This document shows positions 4,668-27,379 of a DNA stretch of 27,625 nt, one piece after another. Location: the IMG/VR virus record IMGVR_UViG_3300032285_001417, positions 1-27,625 of that record. One strand, given 5' to 3'. This DNA is from a virus. The notes under the pieces were generated by a model. The model was not told where the DNA came from. It saw only the letters and a program-made list of their open reading frames with translations, and searched no databases. Both the position numbers and the translations under genes were made by a program. Position 1 is the first letter of the stretch. Each line of letters starts with the position of its first letter.

Positions 4668-4684
4668 TTACCTGGTGAAGTAAC

Positions 4685-5913: not shown

Positions 5914-5922
5914 GGATCAATC

Positions 5923-6345: not shown

Positions 6346-6354
6346 GGTGCGTAA

Positions 6355-6873: not shown

Positions 6874-6884
6874 GAGGATCTGAA

Positions 6885-7298: not shown

Positions 7299-7309
7299 GG
7301 TAAAGCGAT

Positions 7310-8479: not shown

Positions 8480-8491
8480 GAGGATTAAAGC

Positions 8492-9307: not shown

Positions 9308-9315
9308 GGTGTATG

Positions 9316-9579
9316 ATGAAGTCGGCTCTTATTTCTCCTGATGAAAAAGTTTACAAATACGACGGCACATTGCTTGGCGAGCGCGTTGCCGAAGTGACAG
9401 TGCAACCATTTGAAGTTGCGCCCCCGTTGTTTTGGGTTCAGTGCGCCGACGATGTTGCTACAGACCAATTTTATTGGGACGGAAATACTTGTGTTACAAT
9501 TCCACCCCGCCCAACACCTGTTGCACAGTTAACAACAGCAACCACTACCGGACAAGGCGGTCCCAATGTCGTTGCTTAG
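9316..9579 (+). CDS. Small fibre-region protein (87 aa)
   Basis: Two ATGs are adjacent (9313 and 9316). I prefer 9316 because GAGG at 9306-9309 is then six bases away rather than three. The protein reads KSALISPDEKVYKYDG, then RVAEVTVQPFEVAPPLFWVQC and ATDQFYWDG. Small proteins with the pattern ISP-x-E...RVA-x-V...FEVAPPLFW-x-x-C-x-DD are recurrent next to phage fibre genes, without known function. There is no membrane segment. Its 3' end overlaps the cupin gene by 14 bases in another frame. Confidence 0.65.
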   Translation: MKSALISPDEKVYKYDGTLLGERVAEVTVQPFEVAPPLFWVQCADDVATDQFYWDGNTCVTIPPRPTPVAQLTTATTTGQGGPNVVA

Positions 9580-9835
9580 TCGCCCCCTCGAACTCGGAAA
9601 ACTGAACGGCATCATCTACGACTTTGAGAACGCTGGCGACGAGCTCGAGCGGCACGTTCACACAGAAGCCGACGTGCATATCTCCATCGTCGCCCGTGGC
9701 TCCTGCAAGGTGTTCGGCGACGGCTGGGAAACGGTTGCTCAAACTGGCGCGGTCCTCGACTGGGAACCGGGCCAGTATCACGGTTTCATTGCTCTCGAGC
9801 CCAACACGCGCCTTGTGAATATTATCAAAGGGTAA
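9566..9835 (+). CDS. Single-domain cupin protein (89 aa)
   Basis: This is a small beta-barrel (cupin) protein with likely metal-binding histidines. Residues 24-45 fit cupin motif 1 (G-x5-HVH-x5-H-x6-G, with H30, H32 and H38 as candidate ligands; the usual Glu is replaced by His). Residues 61-74 fit motif 2 (PGQYHGF, with H72). At 89 residues it is a minimal one-domain cupin. The start overlaps the previous gene, with AAGG about 8 bases upstream. The context, between fibre genes and the repeat protein, would fit a virion or fibre-associated role, but sugar or small-molecule binding or an enzyme activity is equally open. Confidence 0.75.
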   Translation: MSLLSRPLELGKLNGIIYDFENAGDELERHVHTEADVHISIVARGSCKVFGDGWETVAQTGAVLDWEPGQYHGFIALEPNTRLVNIIKG

Positions 9836-9846
9836 GGGGATGACCG

Positions 9847-11139
9847 GTGGCTATAGCGTTTTATCGCGGAGCGTTCGAACCTAGCGCTTTTGAGGTCGCA
9901 AAGTTTTATACTTTGACGACCAGCTATAGCACTTATTCTCAAACCGGATACGCAGCGGGCATCGCTTACGGCCACAAGGTCGTGGCCAATTACGGCTCCT
10001 ATTCCCAAACTGGGAACGTGGCGGCGCTCACCTCCACCCGCAAGCTGGCGATCGCCCAGGGGGCATACGTTTATACCGGATACCAGGCTGGTATCGCCGC
10101 CACCCGCAAGCTCTCGAGCGCACAAGGCACGTTCTCTCAGACTGGATACGCTGCGGCTCTCGCAGCCACCCGCAAGCTCACACTTGCCCAGGGCGCTTAT
10201 TTCCAGACGGGCTATACGGTTTCGCTCAGGGCAAGCCGTGCACTCTCGTCAGCCTATGCAGCCTATGGTCTAACCGGTTACAGCGCGTCGTTCAGGGCCG
10301 CCCGCCAGCTGCCTTTGACCAAGGGCACGCTTACCTACCAAGGTAACATCGCCGGACTTGCTTATGGTCATAAGCTAAATATTGCTTATGGATCATACGC
10401 TTATAATGGCTATGCAAACACCATCAAGGCGACCCGTCAGTTGCCGGCAACTACCGGCGCCATCTATGGTCAGTACTTCCAGACGGGTTACACTGTCAGA
10501 TTGATCCATGGCTATATGCTTGGGATCGGCGGATCCAGTTACCTCAACGCCGGCCAGAACGCACAATTCAGTGCAGCTCGTCGTGTGGCAGCGGGGCAGG
10601 GCGCCTACGGACTTGTTGGTTACGGCGTTTCCCTTGTCAAAATTCTTTCACTTGGTGCTCGCGGAACGTCGTTCTCTGTTACAGGTAACGCCGCTGGCGT
10701 GGCTGCGCAGCGCCAACTGGCGTCGAACTATGGCACCCTGTCAGTCTCTGGCCAGCTCGCAACCATCATTGCTACACGCGCTTTGGTGGGTGATTACGGC
10801 GTTTACGCCCAATATGGCGCTGGCACCCTCAAGTATAACCGCAATCTTCAAGCCTATCTTGGGGGTTATTCGGTTGTCTTCAATAATGCACGCTTGTATG
10901 AAAGCGCTTTTTTCTATACAGATAATGAAATCATTTATGTGCCGACGGAAACCAACTCCGTAGTTGTTCCCGCTGGCAATGTTGATGCCGACGTTACGAT
11001 TGAGGTTCCATTCGAGATCCAGCTGCTCCAAGTCGAGGAGGAGTATCGGATCATCAAGGTTCCGGCAAACGATAACATTGAGGAGCTTGCCGAGTACCGC
11101 AGAGCGGTCGCGGAGAACAGGATGAGGGTGAGGCCATGA
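9847..11139 (+). CDS. Tandem 22-residue repeat virion protein (430 aa)
   Basis: Start is GTG with TAAGGGGA about 6 bases upstream. After a 26-residue lead, residues 27-337 form about 14 tandem units of 22 residues, plus a partial unit to about 355. The consensus is [YQ]-G-[ST]-[YF]-x-x-x-G-x-x-[AV]-x-[ILF]-x-[AY]-[TG]-[RH]-[KQA]-L-x-x-x. One unit (203-228) has a four-residue insertion. The regular small-aromatic-Gly-aliphatic pattern suggests a beta-solenoid or repeated hairpin fold. The last 75 residues are different: acidic and beta/helix mixed, with EIIYVPTETN and KVPANDN. Similar repeats occur in phage virion proteins without known function. It lies between the fibre genes and a fiber-tail adaptor, so a fibre stalk or scaffold is likely. 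Confidence 0.8.
   Translation: MAIAFYRGAFEPSAFEVAKFYTLTTSYSTYSQTGYAAGIAYGHKVVANYGSYSQTGNVAALTSTRKLAIAQGAYVYTGYQAGIAATRKLSSAQGTFSQTGYAAALAATRKLTLAQGAYFQTGYTVSLRASRALSSAYAAYGLTGYSASFRAARQLPLTKGTLTYQGNIAGLAYGHKLNIAYGSYAYNGYANTIKATRQLPATTGAIYGQYFQTGYTVRLIHGYMLGIGGSSYLNAGQNAQFSAARRVAAGQGAYGLVGYGVSLVKILSLGARGTSFSVTGNAAGVAAQRQLASNYGTLSVSGQLATIIATRALVGDYGVYAQYGAGTLKYNRNLQAYLGGYSVVFNNARLYESAFFYTDNEIIYVPTETNSVVVPAGNVDADVTIEVPFEIQLLQVEEEYRIIKVPANDNIEELAEYRRAVAENRMRVRP
9925..10911 (+). repeat. Tandem 66-bp coding repeat, about 14 copies
   Basis: Units of 66 bases encode the 22-residue repeats. Most boundaries fall every 66 bases from 9925, with one 78-base unit at 10453-10530 and one 63-base unit near 10795. 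DNA copies have diverged (different codons for the same residues), indicating an old expansion kept by selection on the protein. Confidence 0.75.
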
Positions 11140-11674: not shown

Positions 11675-12195
11675 ACCTCCTCAAAACTTTTGGTCCCCTT
11701 CTGGGTCAGATTGCCCCGACGATCGCTACCGCCCTTGGTGGTCCGGTCGCAGGCCTGGCTGTCAAGACGCTCTCCAATATTCTCCTGGGCCACGAGAATG
11801 GCTCGGACGACGAAGTGACGTCGGCCATGGCCGGCGCGAGTCCTGACCAGCTCGCTGCTATCAAGCGCGCTGACAACGACTTCAAAGTCCAGATGGCGAC
11901 GCTGAAGATCGACCTGGTGAAGATCGCAGCCGATGATCGCAACTCGGCTCGCCAGATGCAGATCGCTGTGAAGTCGCAGCTTGTTCCCACGCTGGCAGTG
12001 ATCGTTATTTCGTCCTTTGTTGGCGTGACGATCGGTACTCTTCTTGGCTACGCCAAGATCGAAGGAGCGCTTGCTGGAACTCTCGTTGGGTATCTCTCTG
12101 CCAAGGCAGAACTCGTATTGTCGTTCTATTTCGGTTCTTCGGCTGACAGTGAAAAGAAGAGCGACATGCTCTATCGCTCAACTCCTACGGGGTGA
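11671..12195 (+). CDS. Holin of the 3-TM type (174 aa)
   Basis: Starts with GTG overlapping the previous TGA; GAGTGGG lies upstream. The protein has an N-terminal hydrophobic segment (IAPTIATALGGPVAGLAVKTL), a charged middle part with DNDFKVQMATLKIDL, and two C-terminal membrane segments (LVPTLAVIVISSFVGVTIGT and ALAGTLVGYLSAKAELVLSF). This arrangement fits holins of the 3-TM family, also found in gene transfer agents. It would form inner-membrane holes that let the muramidase reach peptidoglycan. Gene order (small TM protein, holin, endolysin) supports the call. Confidence 0.85.
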   Translation: MNLLKTFGPLLGQIAPTIATALGGPVAGLAVKTLSNILLGHENGSDDEVTSAMAGASPDQLAAIKRADNDFKVQMATLKIDLVKIAADDRNSARQMQIAVKSQLVPTLAVIVISSFVGVTIGTLLGYAKIEGALAGTLVGYLSAKAELVLSFYFGSSADSEKKSDMLYRSTPTG

Positions 12196-12197
12196 TC

Positions 12198-12794
12198 ATG
12201 AATTTCATCGGCGCTGCCATTCGGCTCAAGTCAGCAGATCTGGAGATTGCCGCCCGTGAACTCGACATCGAGCTCGCGGCGCTGAAGGCCGTGATCGCTG
12301 TCGAGACAAGCGGTTCAGGCTTCGACGCGCATGCGCGCCCCCGTGCCTTGTTCGAGCGTCATTTCTTCTATCGTCACCTACTTGATCAGCCAGCCAAGCT
12401 CGATCGGGCAGTGAACCTTGGACTCGCCTATCCGAAGTGGGGCACGCGGCCCTACCCCAAGGGCTCCGACGGTGTCTACCAAGAGATCACCAATGCCTGC
12501 GAGATCGACGAGGAAGCTGCTCTGCTGTCCACGTCCTGGGGCCTTGGTCAGATCATGGGTGAGAACTTTCGCCTCGCCGGATGCGCTTCCGTACATGAGA
12601 TGGTCGAGCAAGCCGTGACATCCGAATACCTCCAGCTTCAGCACATGATGAATTACATCACTGCGACTGGGCTGGATGACGAACTTCAGAAGCGGGACTG
12701 GGCCGGCTTTGCCCGCCACTATAACGGCCCTGCCTATCAGAAGAATGAGTACGACGTAAAACTTGCAAAAGCTTATGAGGTTTCAAATGGCTAA
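12198..12794 (+). CDS. Endolysin: N-acetylmuramidase family
   Basis: The enzyme cleaves N-acetylmuramic acid-glucosamine bonds to lyse the host at the end of infection. The 198-residue protein matches the phage muramidase family (PF11860 type). It has a helical N-terminal segment, then AVETSGSGF with likely catalytic Glu36, then PRALFERHFFYR, SWGLGQIMGENFRLAGC and ARHYNGPAYQKNEYDVKLAKAY. The order and spacing are complete, so it looks active. ATG 12198 is preferred over the in-frame GTG at 12192 because GGGG at 12189-12192 is correctly spaced for it. No signal peptide is seen, so it depends on the holin. Confidence 0.92.
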   Translation: MNFIGAAIRLKSADLEIAARELDIELAALKAVIAVETSGSGFDAHARPRALFERHFFYRHLLDQPAKLDRAVNLGLAYPKWGTRPYPKGSDGVYQEITNACEIDEEAALLSTSWGLGQIMGENFRLAGCASVHEMVEQAVTSEYLQLQHMMNYITATGLDDELQKRDWAGFARHYNGPAYQKNEYDVKLAKAYEVSNG

Positions 12795-13490: not shown

Positions 13491-15566
13491 GTGGTCGCGC
13501 TCAAGCTCCAGAACTTTGGTGGTCAGATCCCGGCAGTGGACAATCGTCTGCTGCCGCAGGACTCTGCTGCTCTGGCGCAGAACGCATGGGTCTACACAGG
13601 TGCACTTGAGGGGATGCGTCAGCACAAGCTGATCTATACCCCAACAAACCCCGACGCCAAAAAGATCTATCGGATACCCAAACAGTACTACGACAAAGAT
13701 CATATCCAGGACTCGTACTGGCTAGAGTTCCTCGAGCGCGACACTGACGTCATTCATTCGCCGGCGGTGGATGACTCGTACGAGCGCTATTACTGGGCTG
13801 CGTCTCAGAAATATTATCCGACCGCTCCTCAGTATAATACCAAGACTCGCATCGCTGCGGGGCAGGCTCCGTTTACGTTGGGCATCCCCGCGCCCACCTA
13901 TGCGCCTGTAATTTCAAAGAAATTGCAGTCCTATACGATGGACGCAGCAACAGCAGCTTATTACCTCGCTGGTCGCGCTGCTGCGCTCTATCACCAAACC
14001 AACTTCGAAGTTGATCCCGAGACCCTTGCCAACGGGCTCCCTGACGTCACCTCGAAGGCCATAGCCTATTCGGTCGATGGCTTCAGTGCTCAGATGCGTC
14101 GCAAGACTACGGTTGGTACGCATCGTGTGGTCATCGACGACCATGGCAACGTCACTGATGCCATACCGACGACGCCTGTGGCTGCTATCACCACGAGCCA
14201 GCCCACACCTCTCCTGGGGTCTTGGGCCTATGTCTATACGTGGGTTAGTGCCTATGGCGAAGAGTCGCCTCCGAGCCCAGCCGTTACCTTCGACGGTAAT
14301 ATCGATGAGACACGCTATGTGCGCGTGACGGCTCCAAACTCGTCCGTGACGACGAACCGGAATATCACCACGGTCCGTATCTATCGCACGGTCACTGGTG
14401 CCACCGGCGCCGCGAGCTACTTCTTCCTCGCAGACATGGACATCTCCAAGACGTCCTACACGGACGACACGAGCGATGTGGATATCGTGAACAACAATAT
14501 CCTGGAGTCGCTTTACTGGGATCCTCCGCCGTCCGATCTCGAGGGCATGATTGCCATGCCAAACGGAATTCTTGCGGGCTTCCGCAAGAACGAGATTTGG
14601 TTCTGCGAACCCTATCGCCCCCATGCCTGGCCGAGCCCCTACACGCTTGCAACGGAGTATCCGATTGTAGGACTGGGTGTTACAGGACAGACGCTGATCG
14701 TTGCCACCACGGGCTATCCCTATGCCGTGACTGGCACGCATCCGACCAACATGAACATGACTCGCGTCGCCACCTACGAGCCCTGCATGTCGCGCGGCTC
14801 GATCGTGTCTGGCGTTGATGGGGTCTATTACGCCTCGCCCAATGGCGTGGTTCGCGCCTATGGTTATGTAGTTGAAGTGATCTCCAAGGCCTTGATCACC
14901 AAGGATCACTGGTTGGATTACCTCTATGTGCAGTCTCTGAGAGCAGCTCGCGTCAATGGTGCCTATTACACCTGGGGCTCTGTTCTGCCCGGCTGCTTTG
15001 AGGCCACAGGGTTCGAGGGCACAGCGTTCCTCGAGGATGATTACACCGGCGCTCGCAGTGGGGCACTCATCGAATTTACGAACCAGCGCGTCGCCTACAA
15101 CACGCTCTACACCGACGATCCGATCCTGAACGTCACGACGGACCATTGGACCGGCGAAGTTTTCATTCTTCGCAAGGGCAAATATTACTGGTTTGATTTG
15201 TCTTCAAGCAATCCGCATGCGCCTTATAAGTGGCGCTCCAAGGTTTTCGAGATGCCAAACAAGCGTAACCTCGAGGCCATGCGTGTTTATTTTGGTACAC
15301 CGGACGGGAACTATTTACCTGACGAGGTAAACGACGCTGACGATGATTACAGCATCAACATGCAGTACGACACGGGAGATTTGGCGATCGTGCGTGTCTA
15401 CGCGGATGACAGGCTGGTCTTTGCCCGTCAGCTCGAGGTGTCAGGCGACCTTTTCCGGCTGCCATCTGGGTTCAAGGCGATCTATTGGCAGATCGAGATC
15501 GAGGGCATCGTGCCAATTTACTCGGTGGAAATCGCGACGGCGGCCAAGGAGCTGAAGAGTGTCTAA
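13491..15566 (+). CDS. Tail nozzle (tail tubular protein B-like) virion protein
   Basis: Probable nozzle of a short tail. The 691-residue protein starts GTG, with GGAG at 13479-13482. Its N-terminus LQNFGGQIPAVDNRLLPQDS, followed by AQNAWVYTGALEGMRQ, is typical of large podovirus nozzle-like proteins. The middle part is beta-rich with propeller-like repeats of W and Y (WAYVYTWVSAYGEESPPSP, TTVRIYRTVTGA, FRKNEIWFCEPYRP), a Fibronectin-like stretch near residues 240-310, and a C-terminal DRLVFARQLEVSGDLFRLPS domain. Length is close to T7-type nozzle proteins. No portal or tape measure is here, consistent with a podovirus. The exact position was not proven. Confidence 0.8.
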   Translation: MVALKLQNFGGQIPAVDNRLLPQDSAALAQNAWVYTGALEGMRQHKLIYTPTNPDAKKIYRIPKQYYDKDHIQDSYWLEFLERDTDVIHSPAVDDSYERYYWAASQKYYPTAPQYNTKTRIAAGQAPFTLGIPAPTYAPVISKKLQSYTMDAATAAYYLAGRAAALYHQTNFEVDPETLANGLPDVTSKAIAYSVDGFSAQMRRKTTVGTHRVVIDDHGNVTDAIPTTPVAAITTSQPTPLLGSWAYVYTWVSAYGEESPPSPAVTFDGNIDETRYVRVTAPNSSVTTNRNITTVRIYRTVTGATGAASYFFLADMDISKTSYTDDTSDVDIVNNNILESLYWDPPPSDLEGMIAMPNGILAGFRKNEIWFCEPYRPHAWPSPYTLATEYPIVGLGVTGQTLIVATTGYPYAVTGTHPTNMNMTRVATYEPCMSRGSIVSGVDGVYYASPNGVVRAYGYVVEVISKALITKDHWLDYLYVQSLRAARVNGAYYTWGSVLPGCFEATGFEGTAFLEDDYTGARSGALIEFTNQRVAYNTLYTDDPILNVTTDHWTGEVFILRKGKYYWFDLSSSNPHAPYKWRSKVFEMPNKRNLEAMRVYFGTPDGNYLPDEVNDADDDYSINMQYDTGDLAIVRVYADDRLVFARQLEVSGDLFRLPSGFKAIYWQIEIEGIVPIYSVEIATAAKELKSV

Positions 15567-15897
15567 CACCAAGCCGAGGATCCCGAGCACCCCAACATTC
15601 ATGCAGGACTTCGTTACGATGTCCTCGACCGTTGCGGCGCTTAAAGTGGCGATGGATACGCTCACGGCACAGATGCACGGGTCCAACTTTACGACGCCGC
15701 GTATTTTCATTTTGGACGCAATCCCAGCTGCAACGTCTCTTTACGATGGCGACCTGTGGGTCAACAAGACCACCCAAGCACTGTCGTACCGTTCAGCTGG
15801 AAGTTGGGTTACAATCTACGATCCCGTGGCGATCGAGCAGCGATTTGCTTCTATTGAAGCAAAAATTTCTCCCAGTGGTGGCGGTAGCGGTCTATGA
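15559..15897 (+). CDS. Hypothetical small structural protein (112 aa)
   Basis: Start is GTG at 15559, overlapping the nozzle end by 8 bases, with AAGGAG about 7 bases upstream. The N-terminal half is helical (STPTFMQDFVTMSSTVAALK). The C-terminal half has FILDAIPAATSLYDGDLWVN and ALSYRSAGSWVTI, a beta-rich pattern like that in fibre or nozzle-tip proteins. The stop overlaps the next start. No firm family. Linked translation with the nozzle suggests a tail component. Confidence 0.65.
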   Translation: MSNTKPRIPSTPTFMQDFVTMSSTVAALKVAMDTLTAQMHGSNFTTPRIFILDAIPAATSLYDGDLWVNKTTQALSYRSAGSWVTIYDPVAIEQRFASIEAKISPSGGGSGL

Positions 15898-16331
15898 TTG
15901 AATACAATAACCCTGTTCATGCAGAGCTTATTGCGGACCGGTCCAAGGCGATCCTGAACAAAGAACTGGACCAGTGCATTTCTCGCACCCGTGACGGCGA
16001 GCTCATCGGCGGGGGCATCTACACAAATTATACTGGTCGTAGTATTTGTATGCACATTGCAGGTTTCGTATCTGATTGGCTCAATAAAGATCTGCTTTGG
16101 GTAGCGTTTCACTATCCTTTTGTGCAGCTTAAATGTCAGAAGATCATAGCAATGGTGCCCGCCACCAATTATCATGCACTTGAATTCGACAAGAAATTGG
16201 GGTTTAAGGAAGAAGCAATTATCCGCGACGTCTATCGTGAGGGCGATATGATTGTGCTTTCGATGTATAAAGACGATTGTCGGTTTCTGAAAATTAAACC
16301 ACAGACAATTGCACAGACGGAGTATGACTGA
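15894..16331 (+). CDS. GNAT-family acetyltransferase-like protein (145 aa)
   Basis: It resembles the GNAT acetyltransferases that lie among tail and ejection genes in podoviruses. Visible features are the central strand-turn GGGIYTNYTGRSICMHIAG (residues 39-57), FHYPFVQLKCQKIIAMVP (72-89), and the motif-B segment NYHALEFDKKLGFKEE (92-107). The usual R/Q-x-x-G-x-G loop is poor: the candidate QLKCQK (78-83) has Lys where related phage proteins often have Gly, so acetyl-CoA binding may be changed. Base composition is notably low (23 of 60 G/C at 16021-16080 versus 37 of 60 at 17041-17100), a sign of separate origin. The substrate is unknown. The start and stop both overlap neighbours. Confidence 0.75.
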   Translation: MIEYNNPVHAELIADRSKAILNKELDQCISRTRDGELIGGGIYTNYTGRSICMHIAGFVSDWLNKDLLWVAFHYPFVQLKCQKIIAMVPATNYHALEFDKKLGFKEEAIIRDVYREGDMIVLSMYKDDCRFLKIKPQTIAQTEYD

Positions 16332-17464
16332 TGGGTGGCGGAAAAGGCGGCGCACCTGCGGCACCCGATTATGGCCCGATTGCTGCGGCCAGTCGTGATG
16401 CGGCGGCTATTCAAGCTCAGCTAGGTCGGGAACAGCTCGACTGGGCGAAGCAGCAGGATGCGATGAACCGCAGCCTTGCGAACAAGGTTGTTGGTTCGGC
16501 CCTGGATACCCAGGCTGTCAACAGCGAAAACGCTGCCTATGACCGCGCTCGCTACCAGGACATGTACCAGCCGCTGGAAAACCAGGCGGTTGCTGACGCT
16601 CAGTCCTACAGCTCGCCAGAGCGCCAGCGCATGGAGATGGGCAAGGCCGAGGCGACGGTCAACCAGACATTTAACGCGCAGCGCCAGGGTGCTCTCCAGA
16701 ACCTCGAGAGCTTCGGTGTCGATCCGACATCCACCCGCTATGCGGCGTTGGATCGTGGCATGCAGATCAACCAGGCAGCGGCATCTGCTGCGGCTGGTAA
16801 CCAGGCCCGTATGACCACTGAAGCCCAGGGTCGTGCGCTCCGTTCTGAAGCGATCAATGTGGGCCGTGGCTATCCTGGCCAGGTCGCACAGACCTATGGC
16901 ACGGCGCTTCAGGCTGGTAACCAGGCAATCAACTCATCGCTGGCGACCACACAGACCGGTGCCAACACGATGGGCACCGCCCCTCAGTATTTCGCGGGTC
17001 AGACCAACAATCTGAACACCTGGGGCAACACCCTCAACATGGGCTACCAGAACCAGCTGGCCCAGTACAACGCGAACCAAAACAGCTCGTCGGGTTGGGG
17101 ATCCGCGCTTGGTCTGGCAGGTGGCCTGCTCTCTGCGCCGCAGTCGTCGATCATGGGTGGCATGCTTGGCTTCGACGAAGGTGGCGCAATCCCTGATGAC
17201 GGTAGTCAGGGCGGCCACGTTCCGGTCTCTGCCAGCCCCTCCCAAGGCGCTGTCGTCGATGACGTACCAGCTCGCCTGACTCCTGGTGAGTTCGTTCTGC
17301 CCAAGGACGTTGTCCAGTGGAAGGGCGAGGAATGGGCTCAGAAGGAAATTCAGAAGGCGCGCGAAGCCCGCAGCAAGGCTCAGGCTCGGCCCACCATGAA
17401 GGCTGCTTTGCCGCAAGCTCCAACTTTTGCATCGCGCTCCGCCGGTGCTCTACCTGTGGGGTAA
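16331..17464 (+). CDS. Internal virion (ejection) protein, Gln/Ala-rich (377 aa)
   Basis: The N-terminus MGGGKGGAPAAPDYGPIAAA precedes a long helical Gln/Ala/Asn-rich region (residues about 20-260) with no membrane segment. A Gly-rich hydrophobic stretch follows (WGSALGLAGGLLSA). The last 100 residues contain GMLGFDEGGAIPDDG and VPARLTPGEFVLPKDVVQWK. This pattern is seen in phage structural proteins that precede very large ejection proteins, and the GEFVLPKDVV end is a recurrent signature. It probably forms part of the internal core and is injected with DNA. No enzyme motif seen. It begins one base before the previous stop ends (TGATG). Confidence 0.7.
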   Translation: MGGGKGGAPAAPDYGPIAAASRDAAAIQAQLGREQLDWAKQQDAMNRSLANKVVGSALDTQAVNSENAAYDRARYQDMYQPLENQAVADAQSYSSPERQRMEMGKAEATVNQTFNAQRQGALQNLESFGVDPTSTRYAALDRGMQINQAAASAAAGNQARMTTEAQGRALRSEAINVGRGYPGQVAQTYGTALQAGNQAINSSLATTQTGANTMGTAPQYFAGQTNNLNTWGNTLNMGYQNQLAQYNANQNSSSGWGSALGLAGGLLSAPQSSIMGGMLGFDEGGAIPDDGSQGGHVPVSASPSQGAVVDDVPARLTPGEFVLPKDVVQWKGEEWAQKEIQKAREARSKAQARPTMKAALPQAPTFASRSAGALPVG

Positions 17465-17467
17465 TCC

Positions 17468-20400
17468 ATGTCTTTCGGTCGTGAAGTAAAAGATTTCATC
17501 AGTGCGTTTGGCTCAATGCGGCAGCTCCAGCAGGGGCAGGCAAAGTCCGACTATTACAACGCTCGCGCGAAGGCATTGAAGGCGTCCACCTTCGACCCGG
17601 AAGCCGCCGGCGATGAGTATGATCGCAAAGGCCCCGGCGCCATCGACACGGGCGACGACCATGACCATGCAGGTGGTACGATCAATCACGCCAGCATCGC
17701 AACATACGGCGATCCCCGCCAGCCAGACTGGGCGAAAAACAACATTGTTACGGTCGAAGCACCCAATGGCGTGAAGTTCCAGGTCCACAAGTCGTCAGCT
17801 GACGATTACAAGGGCTTCCTGAAAGAGCTCAGTGACACCGGATACGAGATCAAGGACGGCGGCGGCCACAACGTGCGCAACATTGCTGGTACGAACAAAC
17901 TGTCCCAGCACGCCTTCGGTAACGCGATCGACATCAATCCAGGACCGAACGCTCGTGGCGGCAAAGGGAACCTTCCCGACAACATCAATGACATTGCTTC
18001 GAAGTACAACCTTACCTGGGGAGGTAACTGGAAAAATACCGACCCCATGCACTTCGAATGGCATCCTCCGGCCAACACCAATACGGCTGCGCCATCTAAC
18101 AATATCCCAACTCCTCCTGTGCGCCCTGCCGCTCCCACTTCAGCGGGTGAGCCCTATCGTGTGGGCGCGCTGGATGACACAGATGCGAGCCCTGATGGTG
18201 TGCAGCTCGAGCAGTTGGCTGCCACTGGCGGCATGATCCGCCCTGTTGCGTCTTATGAAACCGCTGGTCCCGTGGATGACTATGATCCCGATATCGACAG
18301 CGGCCCCGATGAACTCGACCAGATGCAGGCGCAACATGCCAGTGCCAGCGAAGCCGAGGGTGACGGCGGCGGTGGCGGAGACGATAGTACTCTGTTGGGT
18401 AAAGCGCTTCACGGCGGCATGACCTTCATGCAGAGCCATTTCGGGCTCGGTCAGCAGAACGCAGCCGTGGGTAACGACCCCCAACGTGCTCAAGCCCAGC
18501 GCCGCTTTATGCAGGGTGAAGGCGCGATGGATCCGCACGAATATGCTGCGGCGTCTCGCGCAGTCGATCCTCGCGGCAAACTCAACGACGCCCAGCGCAA
18601 CATCTACATCCTTGAAAAGATGTATGATTTCCATCTTCGCCGTGGCGACCCCGCTTCGGCTGACAAGGCTGCGGCTGCGCTGATCCAGTACACGTCCAAC
18701 CAGGCCGCCAAGTATGGTCAGGCTGCGGTCGAGGCTGGCAAGCGCGGCGACCTCAAGGGCATGGTGGACAATGCCAAGAAGGGCTACGAGTTCACTCCCG
18801 ATGGCCATGACGCCGACGCAGAGATCCGCCCTGACGGTAACATCGAGATTACCCGCAAGGATGCCAAGACTGGCGAACCTAACGGCTCGATGACTGTCAC
18901 ACCCCAGCAGCTGTTCAACGCGGCGGTGGGACTCTCCAACAAGTCATCCTACTGGGACTCGCTGATGGAAGCGGGCTCTCGCTATAACGCCACCCGTCCT
19001 GGAGCTCGCAACCTTGCGATGCAGCGCGCGACTGGATTGATCGAGCAGTTCCGTGCCGCAGGTGGCGAACCCGACAAGCCCCAAGGTGCTCCTGCTCAGG
19101 CGGCTCCTGCTCAGGGTGCCAAGCCCCAGGGCGCTGTTCCTGCTTCTGTTGATGGTGATGGTGGTGGAGATCCGGCACCGGCACCTACTGCTTCTGTACC
19201 GGCCGCTCCTACCCCTGGAGGTAACCTACCGACTTTTGCTCGGGGGGACGTACCGCCAGCTGTTACGTCCAGCCAGGCGCCGGCTGTATCAGACCAAGAT
19301 ACAACTGAGGGCAGCGGTGCAGGCGAAGAAAGCGTCGTGAGTCCTTCAGGTACTGCCAGTGCAGCGCCGCAAGGTGCAGTTCCGACCAGCCCGAATTATC
19401 CACAGCTTCAGCGTCCGTCGGTTCCGCCCTTCGAGAGCATTGCGCCGCGTCCTGAGATGAACGCTCAGCAGCGCCAGATCATCCAGCAGTTGACTGCGAT
19501 CAATCCGTCTGCTGCTCGTGCCCTCGAAGCCGAGTGGAAGCAGAACGTGCTTGCGCCGTGGCTCCAGCAGAAGCAGGACTACATGAAAGAGGCGCAGCGC
19601 AAGGCTGACCTCATCTATCAGCAGAGCCGTGAAGATCGCCGCGTTTCGGTTTCCGAGGCGGGTGCCAACCGTCGTCAGACGTTCCAAGAAGAGCAGGCAA
19701 ACAAACGGCAAACATTCCAGGAGCAGCAGGCCAATAAGCGTTCGCAGTTTCAGGAAGATCAGGCGAACAAGCGTACGCAGGCTCAGCAAGAGCATGATAT
19801 GCGCTTGCAGCAAGAGCGTGAAAATCACGACAAGCGCATGGAGTATTACAAGAACTCCAAGCCGGTCTCGGTCAATGACCTGATGAAGAAGGACGAGAAC
19901 CAGGACGAGTTCTTCGGTCGCATCAATGGTGCGATCATGAACAACATCCTCTCGACCTATCGTGACGATCAGGGCAAGCCTCTTACCCAGGACGGTAAGC
20001 CGATTGACGAGAACTGGGTCAAGCAGCGCATCGGTTCGCAGGCGCTCCAGGCACTTCGCGACACGACGATCGACGTCATGCGCTACAACGGGAACCTGTC
20101 TCATGACACGGCTGCGGCTGTGGCACTCCAGATGACTTATCCCGGTCGCACCGGTGATGAAGTCACGCCATACAAGACCAGCCCAGTTCCATCGGTTCCT
20201 GGTGACACTGACGATCGTGTGCTCGTGAAGTTCCGTGGCGACAATCCTGCGCTTCGCAGTGTGGTTCTTCCCGCTGAAGCCGTGCAGCGTATGGACATGA
20301 TCCGTGGTCAGCGCACCAAGAAGGACGTCACCGATATCTTCAACCAGATGATCTCGGGTGAAAAGGAACTCAAGCGCAAAGAAGACCTGGCTGCTGCCAC

Positions 20401-20545
20401 CAAAAACGTCAAGGACCGCGACGAATATTACAAGTCCATTCGCGGTAATGCTGTGGTTCCGTCAGATGCTGAGCTAAAACTTGTTCCCAAACAGGGTGCT
20501 TTAGATATAAATAACGGTAAGTCTTTTCCTCGTCTGCCTTTTTAA
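17468..20545 (+). CDS. Ejection protein with M15 peptidoglycan peptidase domain (1025 aa)
   Basis: Probable internal virion protein that cuts peptidoglycan during genome entry. Residues about 95-200 form an M15 (VanY/L-Ala-D-Glu type) zinc peptidase: LSQHAFGNAIDINPGP gives H148 and D155, and TDPMHFEWHP gives D192 and H195, in the expected order. An N-terminal segment (residues 26-52) is copied in the truncated gene at the left edge. Residues 200-330 and 535-660 are Pro/Ala/Gly-rich linkers. Residues 733-776 contain four 11-residue repeats (ANKRxxFQEEQ type), predicting a hendecad coiled coil. The C-terminus is mixed helix. No signal peptide, as expected for a virion-delivered enzyme. Confidence 0.85.
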   Translation: MSFGREVKDFISAFGSMRQLQQGQAKSDYYNARAKALKASTFDPEAAGDEYDRKGPGAIDTGDDHDHAGGTINHASIATYGDPRQPDWAKNNIVTVEAPNGVKFQVHKSSADDYKGFLKELSDTGYEIKDGGGHNVRNIAGTNKLSQHAFGNAIDINPGPNARGGKGNLPDNINDIASKYNLTWGGNWKNTDPMHFEWHPPANTNTAAPSNNIPTPPVRPAAPTSAGEPYRVGALDDTDASPDGVQLEQLAATGGMIRPVASYETAGPVDDYDPDIDSGPDELDQMQAQHASASEAEGDGGGGGDDSTLLGKALHGGMTFMQSHFGLGQQNAAVGNDPQRAQAQRRFMQGEGAMDPHEYAAASRAVDPRGKLNDAQRNIYILEKMYDFHLRRGDPASADKAAAALIQYTSNQAAKYGQAAVEAGKRGDLKGMVDNAKKGYEFTPDGHDADAEIRPDGNIEITRKDAKTGEPNGSMTVTPQQLFNAAVGLSNKSSYWDSLMEAGSRYNATRPGARNLAMQRATGLIEQFRAAGGEPDKPQGAPAQAAPAQGAKPQGAVPASVDGDGGGDPAPAPTASVPAAPTPGGNLPTFARGDVPPAVTSSQAPAVSDQDTTEGSGAGEESVVSPSGTASAAPQGAVPTSPNYPQLQRPSVPPFESIAPRPEMNAQQRQIIQQLTAINPSAARALEAEWKQNVLAPWLQQKQDYMKEAQRKADLIYQQSREDRRVSVSEAGANRRQTFQEEQANKRQTFQEQQANKRSQFQEDQANKRTQAQQEHDMRLQQERENHDKRMEYYKNSKPVSVNDLMKKDENQDEFFGRINGAIMNNILSTYRDDQGKPLTQDGKPIDENWVKQRIGSQALQALRDTTIDVMRYNGNLSHDTAAAVALQMTYPGRTGDEVTPYKTSPVPSVPGDTDDRVLVKFRGDNPALRSVVLPAEAVQRMDMIRGQRTKKDVTDIFNQMISGEKELKRKEDLAAATKNVKDRDEYYKSIRGNAVVPSDAELKLVPKQGALDINNGKSFPRLPF
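19664..19795 (+). repeat. Four tandem 33-bp coding repeats (hendecads)
   Basis: Each 33-base unit encodes A-N-[KR]-R-x-x-[FA]-Q-[EQ]-x-[QH], repeated four times without gap. Eleven-residue periodicity is typical of right-handed or straight coiled coils. Codons differ among copies. Confidence 0.8.
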
Positions 20546-20554
20546 AGGTTTATC

Positions 20555-23500
20555 ATGGCTGATTATGTTCCCGCTCGGAGTCTAGGTGATGTCATCCCGG
20601 AAGAATACCGGGCAGAACCTACCACGGTTGGAGACTATTTCCGGCCAGCCGTTGCCGCCGTTGGCGATCTTGGTGCGCAGGGCTGTGCCATTTCTCGTTA
20701 CTTCAACGAGAAGATCGGCGACACGGACTCGGCGACGATTGACCGGATCAATCAGCAACAGAACCAGGACTGGGCCGACTCCGTTCGTGCCGGCATGTCC
20801 AACACTGCACGCGAAGGTCTCGAGTCCAGCGTCCTGAGTTCGGACTTCTGGGAACACCCTATCCGCAACGCGATGCTCAAGTCATCGGCGATGGCTCCTG
20901 CCATGATCGCAGGCATGCTTCCCGGTGGCCTCATCGGTGACGCGTGGTTGGCTACGACTGCCGCCGCTGGTACCAACGCAGCCCTGAACGTCGGTGCGTT
21001 CCTGAACGACGTCGATCAGAAGGTCGATAAGGCCGCTGACGCTGATCTCCAGAAACAGTCAGACTACTACGCTGGCCTGCGCCAGCGCATGGACGAGCCC
21101 GAGGCCCGTAAAGAATTCAAGAACTTCATGGCGTCCGACAAGGGGCGCCTGGCGTTGCTTGCCATCGTGGGTGCCGCAGCCGGTGTCACGACCCCTGGCG
21201 GTGTGATCGCTCGCACGACAGGTAAGGACGTCATTAATGAGGCTGAGCGCAGTGCGCTTGGTCACGCCCTGGTGCACGGCGGCGAGGGTGCGTTTGGTAT
21301 GGGTGTGCAGTCTGGCACGTCCAGCGCGGTAAGCCAAAACGCCGCCATCGCTGGTGGCTTCCAGAAAGAGTTTGATCTCCAGCAGTGGTTTTCTGAAGTC
21401 GCCGAAGGCATGGGCCTGGGCGGCATCATGTCAGGCGCCACCGGTGCTCTGACCGGCAAGCGCCCTGCAAAGGAAAAGGTTACCGACGAAGGTAAGAAGC
21501 CAAAGGTCGAGATCCAGGAGGCTCCCGAAAAGGGACCGGACGCGACCGAGCAGGCTGTCACTGGTACTCAGGAGTCCAAGCCTAACGTCACTGAACCGGT
21601 CAACACCGAACAGCAGCCTGCCCCCAAGCAGGAGACAGCTCCTCCGGCAGCGCCTGAACCCCCTGCGCGTCGCCTCCCTGGCGATCTCGAAGACATTTTC
21701 ATCGGCTCGCCGTTCGACGAGCGCGTTTATCCAGAACGCACCAGCGCACCACGGGAAGAGGATCCCGTCGCGCAGCTCAGGCGTGAAGGTTTCAGCGGCG
21801 ATGCGCTCGATGAAGAGGGCTATCGTCGTTACGGCAAAGACTGGTTCGATATGGAGCATCAAGAGGAAGCTCCTGCCCAACCGTCTGGTGGCGCTCCACA
21901 AGACGAGCAAGTGCGTCAGCTCCTTGCTGCCTTCAACCGGACCGAAGAGAAGCCCGTCGTCCGTGGCCCTAATGATGAGGCCGCTCGTCAGGCTATTGCC
22001 GATCTGGACTCGACCGGTCGCACTCGCGAGTCCATGGCCAAGCGCCTGAACGACGAAGAGAACATCCCCGAAGCCAAGCCGCAGCTCGATGCTCAGCGCG
22101 ACCAGGCCGGCGAGCGCAAGGCGATCCTCTACACGAATGGCGAGACTGCTCCCAATAACCCGCCCGAAGGGTTCAAGCGCACCAAGACCAAAGCCGGCGT
22201 GATCGACTACGATCCTACCAAGGTCACCAACAAAGAGGTGATGGATCACGTCAAGAACAACACGCTGAACGATCTCCTCGAGCTCGGACCGCACAACAAG
22301 GAAGATGTTGCAGCATCGGTTGCAGCGGGTCATGAGCCCGTCGCCGTTGTCGCTCGCACGCCAGAAGGCGTTGCGACCCGTGAAGCTGCATCGACCACTG
22401 AGCTCGCTCCCAAGACCGCAGAGGTCATGGCGCGGACGAAGAAGAGCAATGAAGCAACCGTTGCGATTGAGCCCGTCAAGAATGTTCTTGACGGACGCGC
22501 CAACGGCAAGGGTAAGCCCGACGACCTGTTTGCGGTCAACGCGGGCGACCGTCCTGCTCCCAAGGACACATGGGTGCCCCCGTCAGAAGCTGACAGCAAG
22601 CTTGTCACGATTGGCGGCATGGACGTCTGGGTTCGCGACAACAAGCTTGTTGGTCGGGTTGATCCTGAAACCGGTGAGAACACCTGGCTGACAAAAGCTC
22701 AGAGTGCCACCTTTACGGGCCAGTTTCGCGTTCAGCTGCGCAAGATGCGCGAAAAAGGTGAGACCCCTGAAGCGTCTGCACCGAAATCAAAGCGCGAGAC
22801 TACCAAGCAGGAAATTGATCGTCTGGCCAAAGAGCAGGCAGCCGACAAGGCACGCAAGTTCGTCACGCAAAGTGCTGACTTCGATAAGGTCGTTGCAGCC
22901 CGTGACTCGGCTGATGCGCTGGCCAAACCTTCCAACGTCGATCTGACGCCCAAGGAAAAGGTTGAGCCTTCTGAGGTTCGCAAGGTCGAACTGACCGACG
23001 AAGAAAAGCAGAAAAAGGTCGAAGAGGACAACCGCAACCGCGAGGCTAAGGCTCGAGCCGAAGAGCAAAACAAGCTCGCCAAGGCAACGAAAGAAGCCAG
23101 CCAGAAGCTCGCCAAGACCAAGGATCCTGAGCAGCGTCGTCAGGAGGCCGTCGAAAAGCGTGCCGACCAGATCAAGAAGGAAATGGCGGCTCACGGCTAC
23201 ACGATCAAGGACGAGCAGGCGCTTCGCCAGGCTGAGCGTGACATTGCAGCAGCCGAGGCCAAGGCCAAGGAAAACAATTCACAGATCGACTTCGCTGCTC
23301 GTCGTTGGCTCGACGACACTGCCGGCGCACCTGATGCAGCAGGGCATATTGCCACCGGCACCGAGCGTGCGCCTGAGCCCAATGAGATCAAGCAGTCCTA
23401 TCCGCTCTCCGTGGCAATCCACGCTGCCGACGAGAGCAAGTTCGACAATGTCTCTAAGCCGATGCGGATGCTCCTCGATGGCCTCAAGAAGCGCCTCGAG

Positions 23501-26500
23501 GACACGATCGGTCATGTGGATGTCCATGTCGTTACTCAGGAGACGATGGACAGCCTGAACCCCAACAAACCAGCCGGCACCGTGAAAGCGTATTTTGACG
23601 CCGACAAGAACCACATCGTCATCAGTGACCGCCACGTCGGCAAGAACGGCGCGATGGATATGCGCGTGCTCGCCCATGAAGGGATGCACGCCCTGATCGA
23701 CCATGCGCTTGAGCGCGACACGAACATGCAGCGTGTCATCAACCGGATGATCGATCATCTCCGGTCGGAGACCGATGAGTATTACCACGGCTTCAAAGAC
23801 CCCCACGAGTTCATCGCCGAGGCGCTTTCCAGTCCGAAGTTCCAAGAGCTCCTGATGGAGACCAAGGCTCCGAAGGATCTGATCGCGGAGCTCAAACTGG
23901 ATAAGGCGCCTGGCAACGGCTCGATGTGGTCAGCGATGATCGAGTCGATCCGTCAGTTTGTCCTGACTAGGATGCCGTGGGTGGCCAAGGACGGCCACAA
24001 CATGATGTCTGCGGTCCTGCGCGTCGTCGATAAGCTCGACCAGAAGGCAGAAGTCATTCGCGCGGTTGAGCAAAAAGAACCTGCAACACCTCGCCGTTTC
24101 ATGGAGTCCGCTGGGAACTTTACCCCTGAAGGTAACGAGGCCCACCAGGAAAACCTTGACCAGATGTTCCGTGTGCCGCTCAAGGAAGCCTTGCTGCGCG
24201 ACACGAGCAATCTCGTCCAGATGGTGAGGGATCCGGTCTTCAAGACGGCCGAGTTCATCTCCAAGGCAGCGACAGATCCGCGTGGCACGATGTCAGAGAT
24301 CGCCAACCGCGATCGCGGCATCATCGCTCAGCGTGCGGCAAGCCTGTTCACGACCAATGACCAGTTCCGCCAGGCTCACGAGTCCAAGCTGCCGATGATC
24401 CGTGGGATCTTCGACCAGATCGAGAAGGCCGGTGTCTACGGCGCCGAGCTGAAGGAGCGTGGCACCGACATCGCTGCGGCCCTCTATCGTGCTCAGCAGG
24501 CCGTGCCTGGTGCCTTTGATCGTTTCGCTGATCTGATCCAGCGCCAGACCATGTATGGCGTCGATGCCTCGAGCGCGATCGGGGAAGGACGCAACAAGCA
24601 CCTTGAGCTGACCAGGGCAGCCGAGAAGCGTATGCGCAACCCGTCTGACCAGCACGCAGCTCCCATGAAGAACTGGGAGGCGCGTAACGCCCATGCCAGC
24701 CTCAAGGCTGACTATGACGCGCTGGTGAAGGAGCATCCCGAGTTCGCCAAGCTCCAGAAGGCGATGTTCGACTATTACGACCAGTCGCACGCCGCCATGA
24801 CCAAGGGCATCCTCGACCACATCCTGCGAACCTATGAGTTCGATGGCACGCCAGCTGAGCGTGCGGCGATGGTGGACCAGCTCTACAACAACCGCCTGAG
24901 CGACGACATGAAGTCGTTGTTGGAAGCGAAGATCGGCAGCAATGCCGTGTCGCAGATTATCAACGCGCAGGCCTTCAAGAAGATCGAAGGGCCATACGCT
25001 CCGCTGATGCGGCGCGGCGAACATGTCGTGCTTGGGGAGTACAAGCTCCCCGAGGCGAAGAACGCGATCAACCGTCCTGAGCCCAACGTCTATGAGTTCA
25101 AGACCGCGAAAGAGGCGCACGACTTTGCCGTCAATTCCGGTCTGCACTTCAATGTCGAGAAGGCCTATTACGACAACACCACGGGTGAGAAGACCACCAA
25201 GGTCGGCGGCCTGAACACCTCCGGCGGTCCTGAAGAACGCTTCGCTGTCACGCTGCAAAACAAGCACGTCGAGTTCCACGAGAACCGTGAGGATGCACTC
25301 GCATCGCACAAGGCGCTTCACGCGTCTGGTGAGTTCGAGAACCTCGCCGTGGGCGAGCGCGACAGGATGCAGAACATGGAAGGTGAGTTCACCGGCCGTG
25401 GCGTCATGGCGCTGATCAAGAGCCTCGAGCAACAGGGCGGCTACAAGTCAGCCCCCGAGGAAGTGCGTGAGCAGCTGCGCAACACGATCAAAGAGGCCGG
25501 CATCCGCGCGATGTCTGGCAACCGTGTCCAGTCCCGCCGCTTGCCTCGTCGCCGTGTCGAGGGTGCGTCAAACGACATTTTACGTAACCTCTACGATTAC
25601 AACAATTCAGCAATGAACTATATCGCCCGCCTCAAGTTCCAGGAGCCCATCGAGAATGGTCTCAAGGAGATGCGGGACCATGTCGAGTCGCAGCGTTACA
25701 GTGGCAACTATGACGAGCTGACACGGCTCGCCAATCAGGTCACTGACCGTGCGCGTGCAAAAGATCCGAATGACTATACGGGCGCCTATACCGACTGGAC
25801 GAAACGTCTGGGCACCTGGTCGTACATCGACCGGATGATGCGTCCGTCGCATTTGATCTTGCATCAAACCCATTTGCCGATGATCACCGCGCCGATCATT
25901 GCTGGCCGTCACGGGCTGGCTGACACCTATGGCATGATGATCAAGACCTGGAAGCAGGCGACCCGCGCCTATAAGGCCGGTGGCGAGGACTTCATCAATT
26001 CGATCGCCGACTCCATGCACAAGGGCACCAACTATGGTGATATGTTCAAGGAGAGCTTCAAGGGCGAGAAGGATGCCAAGCGCCTTGGAGAAATGTGGGA
26101 CAAGCTGACCGAGATCGGCTGGCTGCACCCGCAGTCCAACAGCGAGATCCAGAAGTACATGCCCGCCACCCAGAAGGGTGGTGTGCTCGGTGGCATGGAT
26201 CGCGCGATCCAGAAGTTTGACACCGTGTTCCGTCACCTGACGAATTCCACCGAAGCGATCAACCGCTTCGTGGGTGCGTCAATGGCGTATAGGCTCGAGT
26301 TCGCAAAGCTTACCCGCGAAGGTATGAAAGAGGCTGACGCTCACGCCAAGGCTATCGACTATGCGCGTGACACGATCTCAAACACGCAGGGTGTTTATTC
26401 CAGCACCAACGCTGCGCCGATCTTCAAGAATAAGTGGCTGCGGCCCTTCTTGCAGTTCCGCCAGTTCCCCAACATGATCTATAACCTGTTGGCTCGTACC

Positions 26501-27379
26501 ACTATCAAAGCGTTCAAGGGTGACACCCGCGAAGAGCGCGTGCAGGCAGCTGCAAGCGTCGCGCTCCTGCTCGGTACCCACACCGCCATGACGGGTATCC
26601 TTGGCGGTCTTCCGATGGAAGCCTTCAAGATCGCTGGCATGGTCAGCCGTGGCCTGGGCCTGACCCAAGGCGACTGGAACGATGTCGAGCAGGCTGTCTC
26701 CGACAAGGTGCTCGAGACGATGGGGCACACGATGGGCGAGCTCGTCCTTCACGGTGCCGGTCGCTACGCCAATGTGGACGTCCACCATCGTATGGGTCTG
26801 AACTCGTTCTTCACCTTCGGTATGCCCGACAAGCTGGACAGCACCAACATGTGGGCGTGGATGGGCAAGCAGATTGCTGGTGCACCTGGTGGCCTGGCCG
26901 AAGATACCTTCAGAGGTATCCATCAAATGATGAATGGCGACTTCCACGGCGGCATGATGAGGGCGATGCCTCTCCAGATGCTGCGTGACGTTGGACGTGC
27001 GTGGGAAGGTGGATCCAAGTCCACAACTGGCTACCAGTACCAGGGCGCCGGCGACACGGCTGCTCGCCTGTTGGGCTTCACTCCCGCCAGCGAAGCGGAA
27101 TTCTACGAGAAGAAAGCTCAGACCTACCGCACGGTGGAACGCTACAACGATCAGCGTTCTGAACTGATGCGCACCTGGTCAACATCGAAGCCTGAGCGTC
27201 GCGAAGAGGTTTGGTCACGCATCCAAGCCTGGAACAAGGACAAGCCCAAGGACGCACAGATCACCAAGGGGGATTTGATCAAGTCCCTCAATCGTCGCGA
27301 GAGCTCGGACCGCATCAACGGCATCCCTGTCAACTCGCACAATCGTTGGGCCGTCGAGTCGTCGGCAAGCCTGAATTAA
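20555..27379 (+). CDS. Giant ejection-type virion protein with HEXXH metallopeptidase motif (2274 aa)
   Basis: It is probably the largest core protein, injected with the genome and spanning the envelope. Hydrophobic Gly/Ala-rich segments lie at about 110-150, 198-220 and 280-300, suited to membrane insertion. Residues 300-740 are Pro/Glu/Lys-rich and disordered; 742-905 is a highly charged coiled coil. HEGMH at 1041-1045, preceded by MRVLA, is followed by EFIAEALSS with E1089 as candidate third zinc ligand; this resembles metallopeptidases of large phage polyvalent proteins. The C-terminal 1100 residues are helical. RPFLQFRQFPNMIYN (1963-1977) may correspond to the PLxRFG-type end domain of that group. 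Much longer than T7 gp16 (about 1300). Confidence 0.75.
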   Translation: MADYVPARSLGDVIPEEYRAEPTTVGDYFRPAVAAVGDLGAQGCAISRYFNEKIGDTDSATIDRINQQQNQDWADSVRAGMSNTAREGLESSVLSSDFWEHPIRNAMLKSSAMAPAMIAGMLPGGLIGDAWLATTAAAGTNAALNVGAFLNDVDQKVDKAADADLQKQSDYYAGLRQRMDEPEARKEFKNFMASDKGRLALLAIVGAAAGVTTPGGVIARTTGKDVINEAERSALGHALVHGGEGAFGMGVQSGTSSAVSQNAAIAGGFQKEFDLQQWFSEVAEGMGLGGIMSGATGALTGKRPAKEKVTDEGKKPKVEIQEAPEKGPDATEQAVTGTQESKPNVTEPVNTEQQPAPKQETAPPAAPEPPARRLPGDLEDIFIGSPFDERVYPERTSAPREEDPVAQLRREGFSGDALDEEGYRRYGKDWFDMEHQEEAPAQPSGGAPQDEQVRQLLAAFNRTEEKPVVRGPNDEAARQAIADLDSTGRTRESMAKRLNDEENIPEAKPQLDAQRDQAGERKAILYTNGETAPNNPPEGFKRTKTKAGVIDYDPTKVTNKEVMDHVKNNTLNDLLELGPHNKEDVAASVAAGHEPVAVVARTPEGVATREAASTTELAPKTAEVMARTKKSNEATVAIEPVKNVLDGRANGKGKPDDLFAVNAGDRPAPKDTWVPPSEADSKLVTIGGMDVWVRDNKLVGRVDPETGENTWLTKAQSATFTGQFRVQLRKMREKGETPEASAPKSKRETTKQEIDRLAKEQAADKARKFVTQSADFDKVVAARDSADALAKPSNVDLTPKEKVEPSEVRKVELTDEEKQKKVEEDNRNREAKARAEEQNKLAKATKEASQKLAKTKDPEQRRQEAVEKRADQIKKEMAAHGYTIKDEQALRQAERDIAAAEAKAKENNSQIDFAARRWLDDTAGAPDAAGHIATGTERAPEPNEIKQSYPLSVAIHAADESKFDNVSKPMRMLLDGLKKRLEDTIGHVDVHVVTQETMDSLNPNKPAGTVKAYFDADKNHIVISDRHVGKNGAMDMRVLAHEGMHALIDHALERDTNMQRVINRMIDHLRSETDEYYHGFKDPHEFIAEALSSPKFQELLMETKAPKDLIAELKLDKAPGNGSMWSAMIESIRQFVLTRMPWVAKDGHNMMSAVLRVVDKLDQKAEVIRAVEQKEPATPRRFMESAGNFTPEGNEAHQENLDQMFRVPLKEALLRDTSNLVQMVRDPVFKTAEFISKAATDPRGTMSEIANRDRGIIAQRAASLFTTNDQFRQAHESKLPMIRGIFDQIEKAGVYGAELKERGTDIAAALYRAQQAVPGAFDRFADLIQRQTMYGVDASSAIGEGRNKHLELTRAAEKRMRNPSDQHAAPMKNWEARNAHASLKADYDALVKEHPEFAKLQKAMFDYYDQSHAAMTKGILDHILRTYEFDGTPAERAAMVDQLYNNRLSDDMKSLLEAKIGSNAVSQIINAQAFKKIEGPYAPLMRRGEHVVLGEYKLPEAKNAINRPEPNVYEFKTAKEAHDFAVNSGLHFNVEKAYYDNTTGEKTTKVGGLNTSGGPEERFAVTLQNKHVEFHENREDALASHKALHASGEFENLAVGERDRMQNMEGEFTGRGVMALIKSLEQQGGYKSAPEEVREQLRNTIKEAGIRAMSGNRVQSRRLPRRRVEGASNDILRNLYDYNNSAMNYIARLKFQEPIENGLKEMRDHVESQRYSGNYDELTRLANQVTDRARAKDPNDYTGAYTDWTKRLGTWSYIDRMMRPSHLILHQTHLPMITAPIIAGRHGLADTYGMMIKTWKQATRAYKAGGEDFINSIADSMHKGTNYGDMFKESFKGEKDAKRLGEMWDKLTEIGWLHPQSNSEIQKYMPATQKGGVLGGMDRAIQKFDTVFRHLTNSTEAINRFVGASMAYRLEFAKLTREGMKEADAHAKAIDYARDTISNTQGVYSSTNAAPIFKNKWLRPFLQFRQFPNMIYNLLARTTIKAFKGDTREERVQAAASVALLLGTHTAMTGILGGLPMEAFKIAGMVSRGLGLTQGDWNDVEQAVSDKVLETMGHTMGELVLHGAGRYANVDVHHRMGLNSFFTFGMPDKLDSTNMWAWMGKQIAGAPGGLAEDTFRGIHQMMNGDFHGGMMRAMPLQMLRDVGRAWEGGSKSTTGYQYQGAGDTAARLLGFTPASEAEFYEKKAQTYRTVERYNDQRSELMRTWSTSKPERREEVWSRIQAWNKDKPKDAQITKGDLIKSLNRRESSDRINGIPVNSHNRWAVESSASLN

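Follow-up and report, generated by a model that had tools for sequence, protein, structure and literature searches.

Why a phage protein of 2274 residues should carry a metallopeptidase motif in its middle is the question raised by this locus, a 27.6 kb virus record with a podovirus-type late module (27,625 nucleotides, analysed over the full length and called the window below). Zincin-like peptidases were described by Iyer et al. (2017) as the commonest domain of polyvalent proteins, with 12 clades, and both self-processing and effector hypotheses were already stated for them (PMC5512222). Because polyvalent-protein metallopeptidases were predicted in 2017, the kind of domain is already known. 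Its fold, homology, conservation, gene context and exchange as a module were determined here by computation. Of three proteins ejected by a short-tailed phage into its host before the DNA follows, the protein in question, called the giant below, is very probably the largest, and its open reading frame (2274 codons on the plus strand at 20555-27379, as given in the earlier note) was recovered in the ORF listing of the window (Table 1).

Table 1. Features of the window; residue numbers are those of the 2274-aa protein.
Feature	Nucleotide position	Strand	Basis
Major head protein	2180-3169		Part of late module
Muramidase	12192-12794		Part of late module
Internal virion protein, phrog_511	13491-15566		Part of late module
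377-aa first module gene, gp14/EP3-like position	16331..17464	+	phrog_8003 virion structural protein, E 8.5e-85; synteny
1025-aa partner, gp15/OEP-like position, Peptidase_M15_4 murein-hydrolase domain	17468..20545	+	PF13539, E 9e-13
Giant ORF, 2274 aa, ATG start	20555..27379	+	ORF call; NF032893, 209 bits; phrog_37402, E 7e-144
N-terminal region, residues 1-320	20555..21514	+	Hydropathy; weak phrog_2206 similarity
Charged coiled-coil-like linker, residues ~735-910	22757..23284	+	Composition
Predicted zincin-type metallopeptidase domain, residues 946-1175	23390..24079	+	AlphaFold2 model, VIA-align, hhalign
HEGMH, H1041-E1042-x-x-H1045, predicted two zinc ligands and general base	23675..23689	+	Invariant in relatives
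H1078, seven residues before E1085	23786..23788	+	Tyr there in 51/58 relatives
E1085, probable third zinc ligand	23807..23809	+	Unchanged wherever a relative's motif was read
E1089, candidate ligand of the earlier note	23819..23821	+	Conserved inside subfamily only
C-terminal, mostly helical scaffold, residues 1176-2274, including PLxRFG domain 1569-2251	24080..27376	+	NCBIfam and prediction

Tail protein genes are also present in the late module of the window. A GNAT-type acyltransferase gene (phrog_4470, 15894-16331) is located between the tail genes and the ejection module, and a series of small ORFs of beta-rich, fibre-like character (4245-11139) includes a 430-aa protein (9847-11139) with tandem 'TGYxxxIxATRKL...YGTYS'-like repeats and no PHROG match. 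The giant is the last and largest product of a three-gene internal-protein module (377, 1025 and 2274 aa), and in most relatives proteins of 260-440 aa and 450-1050 aa likewise precede it in this order. The internal proteins of T7 are gp14, gp15 and gp16. By analogy, this conserved three-gene module looks like T7 gp14-15-16 or an ejectosome with the giant as TEP-type protein, and the giant, whose C-terminus is of the PLxRFG type, was accordingly read as an ejection protein. The ejection proteins of phage PhiM1 are EP3, OEP and TEP (PMC11440229). By position the giant would correspond to T7 gp16 and to the PhiM1 tetrameric ejection protein. Relatives were detected in virions by mass spectrometry in three cases, namely Cellulophaga phi14:2 gp076, Pectobacterium CB1_77 and JC1 gp69 (PMC9144972). 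Together with the module context, these detections make the designation as a virion protein, used in the earlier note, probable.

The murein hydrolase of the middle protein is swapped between relatives (M15 in the window, Phage_lysozyme2 in locus L030, Hydrolase_2 in L034), and a 980-aa protein encoded at the syntenic position in L030 is a homologue (E 4e-36) of the window's 1025-aa protein. Residues 310-506 of the 1025-aa protein are homologous to L030 despite the differing hydrolase domain. A convergent DUF927/primase-like gene often sits after the giant gene in relatives; genes for DUF927/primase-polymerase-like proteins of 930-1030 aa converge on the giant in L006 (15526-18624), L014 (13342-16197) and L045 (11664-14465, minus strand).

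The giant scored 209.1 bits against NCBIfam model NF032893 (PLxRFG; curated cutoff 100) over residues 1569-2251, and phrog_37402 spans most of the protein (E 7e-144). Named relatives include EVB29_085 of Rhizobium phage RHph_TM27A (2307 aa). In L132, at about position 10001, a PLxRFG C-terminus was found in a 723-aa ORF lacking an upstream peptidase, which may represent a frameshift, a split gene or a short form. The layout proposed in the earlier note was largely recovered. Its membrane-prone N-terminal segments were reduced to one clear hydrophobic stretch at residues ~199-220 (mean Kyte-Doolittle 1.77), whereas the stretch at ~110-150 is milder. The charged coiled coil was recovered as a coiled-coil-like stretch of the linker, with 25 K+R and 24 D+E in residues 801-900. 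For the last 1,100 residues, helices were predicted over most of the length, plus a single small alpha/beta subdomain. Pfam searches with the whole giant and with its peptidase domain alone gave zero matches, and the giant of the window, used by itself as query against PDB sequences, gave nothing at E values up to 1. The peptidase is the sole recognised enzyme domain of the window giant; other enzyme domains are present in relatives. An RNA polymerase domain was absent from the Pfam and PDB sequence searches, and phrog_2206 (virion RNA polymerase) matched the giant only weakly and only via its N-terminus. A profile-profile comparison of this N-terminus with two Schitoviridae N-termini was negative, so that the idea of an N4 polymerase chassis devoid of polymerase is supported in part only. 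For the C-terminal scaffold, Foldseek found nothing among solved folds at E below 0.1, and VIA-align gave Z below 8 for all of them, the best (Z 6.7) being unrelated helical repeats; the values for N4 C2 (Z 4.7, rmsd 18.7) and the T7 core protein (Z 4.5) were both non-significant.

The HEGMH motif at residues 1041-1045 stands as described in the earlier note. A chance HEXXH occurred in 9% of shuffled copies of the giant; the motif alone therefore proves little, and it is conservation and fold that make the case for it. Relatives were collected by tblastn-confirmed scans; a scan of viral contigs with the single peptidase domain yielded zero confirmed relatives. HEXXH and the Glu were conserved in all 58 sequences of the relatives' alignment. 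In a set of 80 loci, for which the search pattern forced the Glu motif and left HEXXH free, HEXXH was found 47-68 residues upstream of the Glu motif in every locus. Another set was recruited via the C-terminal scaffold alone with patterns that forced neither element. All 31 loci with at least 260 residues upstream (out of 35) carried HEXXH followed by the Glu motif, the Glu being judged by eye from printed motifs where the script pattern missed it. The earlier note had made its reading depend on conservation of HEXXH among close homologues, and the motif was kept in 58/58 and 31/31 cases. A 2763-aa relative in L010 (6216-14504) contains two HEXXH motifs (HEGLH and HELLH) and possibly two peptidase domains.

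An AlphaFold2 model of residues 946-1175 was obtained with a pLDDT of 90.1 and a pTM of 0.84. In model numbering, strands were assigned at 44-48, 67-70 and 75-79, the HEXXH helix at 91-109 and the Glu helix at 138-147. For residues 950-1115, inside this region, structure prediction had been proposed as a check in the earlier note, and the outcome was a zincin fold, not a fold devoid of a zinc site. The best VIA-align match was PhiM1 TEP (8vb2, residues 288-516; Z 9.7, rmsd 4.0, 146 residues aligned), followed by the N4 virion RNA polymerase (9pnt, residues 2133-2364; Z 8.0, rmsd 3.8, 172 aligned); lethal factor and PPEP ranked lower (Z 5.2 and below). Profile searches matched the internal virion protein 9sfn_G (4e-16), PhiM1 gp48 (8vb2, 1e-11) and gp10 (23sg, 4e-10), and more weakly the N4 polymerase (3e-6) and lethal factor (6e-6). 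Comparison by hhalign with the C1 domains of two Schitoviridae virion RNA polymerases gave a probability of 99 (E 4.6e-18). According to this model, the domain is a zincin-type metallopeptidase fold of the polyvalent-protein kind; the resemblance to polyvalent-protein metallopeptidases that the earlier note had pointed out is supported by the model and the conserved HEXXH and Glu.

The third zinc ligand was reassigned. The earlier note had named E1089, and a Glu is indeed present there, but the ligand is most likely E1085, four positions away, as judged from conservation and spacing. The equivalent of E1085 is kept in 8vb2, 9sfn, 23sg and the Schitoviridae proteins. The position of E1089 is occupied by W (9sfn), Q (8vb2) or G (23sg) in solved ejection proteins, by T, W or Y in Schitoviridae and other phage proteins, and by W, D and H in L105, L119 and L131, respectively. 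Since E1085 is invariant in all relatives with a motif reading while E1089 varies, E1085 was favoured and E1089 rejected. The profile alignment to lethal factor ends with profile position 140 at residue 741, which would place E1085 at 735 provided that its final seven columns contain no gaps. Lethal factor (Tyr728, Glu735) and PPEP-1 (Tyr178, Glu185) likewise have a spacing of seven residues between Tyr and Glu.

The domain is not inherited strictly together with the remainder of the giant. Locus L105, the closest relative by C-terminus, shares 54-69% identity with the window giant across residues 1301-2274, but 17-26% in the peptidase and 26-30% further upstream. L014 is the closest relative by peptidase (38%), and its C-terminal BLAST similarity to the window giant was undetectable. 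Expressed as relative bit score to the window, the values for peptidase and C-terminus were 0.04 and 0.57 for L105, and 0.31 and 0.00 for L014. The nearest neighbour by peptidase differed from that by C-terminus in 43 of 82 proteins. By these comparisons the peptidase is exchanged between relatives as a module, with HEXXH and Glu retained. As HEXXH and E1085 survive the exchange, the proteolytic activity of the predicted peptidase is probably selected. Such cassette exchange with the catalytic residues kept has apparently been little appreciated in the literature searched. In the open frame of the L105 giant, HEXXH falls at residue 1045; the peptidase of this giant belongs to another subfamily (HELLH...ELLAWG), and a sharp exchange boundary with respect to the window was seen near window residues 1176-1300. 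Self-cutting of proline-rich linkers in the manner of Pro-Pro endopeptidases was considered and rejected, as the N-terminal parts revealed no enrichment of Pro-Pro sites (227 observed vs 220 expected).

An even chance is given to the following proposal: the giant is the third and largest ejection protein and carries an active, exchangeable gluzincin-like peptidase that acts in trans after ejection. Inside the capsid it would belong to the internal core, and it would pass through the tail before the DNA does; the 377-aa and 1025-aa proteins would go with it, and the 1025-aa protein would supply the M15 murein hydrolase. The hydrophobic N-terminus may be placed in the inner membrane, and the helical PLxRFG C-terminus may serve as scaffold. 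Zinc would be coordinated by H1041, H1045 and E1085, with E1042 as putative general base. The peptidase would then probably cut a host protein or other ejected proteins, this choice of substrate being a preference. The replacement by His of the Tyr usually found seven residues before the third ligand was counted against this explanation, as were the non-significant fold matches of the C-terminal scaffold to N4 C2 and the T7 core protein and the weakness of the N-terminal similarity to virion RNA polymerases.

The strongest competitor, although rather unlikely, is self-processing, in which the giant's own linker (~300-945) is cut after ejection or inside the capsid and the N-terminus or a cargo is freed from the C-terminal scaffold. 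Iyer et al. (2017) put this forward as their principal hypothesis for such domains, and DdrB of P1 is cut before packaging (PMC5512222). The long charged linker of the giant and the joint divergence of N-terminal region and peptidase in L105 are consistent with it, and cargo domains of relatives lie exactly between N-terminus and peptidase (InPase in 3/21, LPD22 in 2/21, GNAT in 1/21). In the window giant, however, nothing was recognised in this slot. As the catalytic Glu persists through exchange and the giant has no other recognised enzyme domain, the freeing of an attached enzyme cannot be its only use. The conserved C-terminal scaffold looks an unlikely place for cleavage, since the peptidase is swapped without regard to it and the same peptidase type precedes unrelated C-termini. 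The virion RNA polymerase of N4, which has a homologous domain, was reported as packaged unprocessed (PMC5512222), and the recombinant full-length enzyme was obtained without evidence of degradation (PMC12633501), which argues against constitutive self-cleavage in this relative. The similarity of the peptidase follows that of the N-terminus and that of the C-terminus to much the same extent (partial correlations 0.26 and 0.33), so that action in cis and in trans is not separated by this measure.

The domain might also be catalytically idle, with a structural role or a metal-binding one in the ejection channel. Ejection proteins of solved structure pack tightly into cores, the giant has His in place of the usual Tyr, and protease activity is unreported for PhiM1 gp48 or N4 gp50 in the literature searched. 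This is nevertheless improbable, as E1042, a residue required for catalysis but dispensable for folding and for binding zinc, does not vary in 58/58 and 31/31 sequences, even where the domain has been exchanged. A contribution to the opening of peptidoglycan was proposed by the PhiM1 authors, who assigned TEP residues 268-528 as 'endolysin/exotransglycosidase-like' from BLASTP and DALI (PMC11440229). The location in a wall-crossing ejection protein would fit such a role, but the same TEP region matches zincin by profile and fold, the wall function already resides in the neighbouring protein (M15, or lysozyme or cell-wall hydrolase in relatives), and similar domains adjoin the RNA polymerase in N4; the peptidoglycan role was consequently regarded as very improbable. 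The matches suggest that PhiM1 TEP 268-528 belongs to the zincin group, which is apparently little appreciated in the literature searched.

If the domain is active, podophages deliver a protease among the first molecules entering the cell, before phage gene expression, either as an extra step of genome delivery or as an immediate counter-defence. A broader reading, which we consider doubtful, is that otherwise unlike phage ejection machines (the T7-like PhiM1 and phiKMV types, N4-like, crAss-like and PLxRFG giants) have one enzyme in common, a single family of active zinc peptidases, which passes between scaffolds as a cassette because it attacks different proteins of the host, perhaps those of defence, right at the onset of infection. 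A BFVD entry from a crAss-phage is named 'RNAP associated protein fused to zincin protease'. The prediction of 2017 becomes testable in model phages such as N4, and the expected zinc ligand for mutagenesis is corrected to E1085 from E1089.

Compared with known systems, the giant differs from M34 gluzincins (lethal-factor peptidase domain) and Pro-Pro endopeptidases by its distance (Z ~5), H1078 at the Tyr position and the lack of a Pfam ATLF match, but shares with them HEXXH, the Glu as third ligand and the zincin arrangement. With PLxRFG/DarB-like giants (NF032893; Bcep22-like JC1 gp69) it has in common the C-terminal domain and the location at the end of the structural module; the methylase-helicase pair of DarB-like giants is missing from the window giant, and the DarB-like giant of a Vibrio phage (L003) had no HEXXH within the stretch examined. 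N4 gp50 (C1; 9pnt, 11fw; PMC12633501) resembles the giant in a homologous zincin with a membrane-type N-terminus before it and a long helical C-terminus behind it, whereas the giant lacks the RNA polymerase domain and similarity outside the zincin is weak. PhiM1 gp48 (8vb2; PMC11440229) is shorter (1263 vs 2274 aa), has Gln at the E1089 equivalent and was published as endolysin-like; it matches in zincin fold (Z 9.7), HEXXH with the E1085 equivalent and the class of third ejectosome product, the likeness resting on the zincin part, as the match of the C-terminal hub was below significance. Polyvalent proteins differ in that the peptidase is the only recognised enzyme domain of the window giant. 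The giant resembles them (PMC5512222) as a giant phage protein predicted to be delivered at infection, in the HEXXH helix with the Glu in the next helix, and through the InPase, LPD22, LPD39 and GNAT domains of its relatives.
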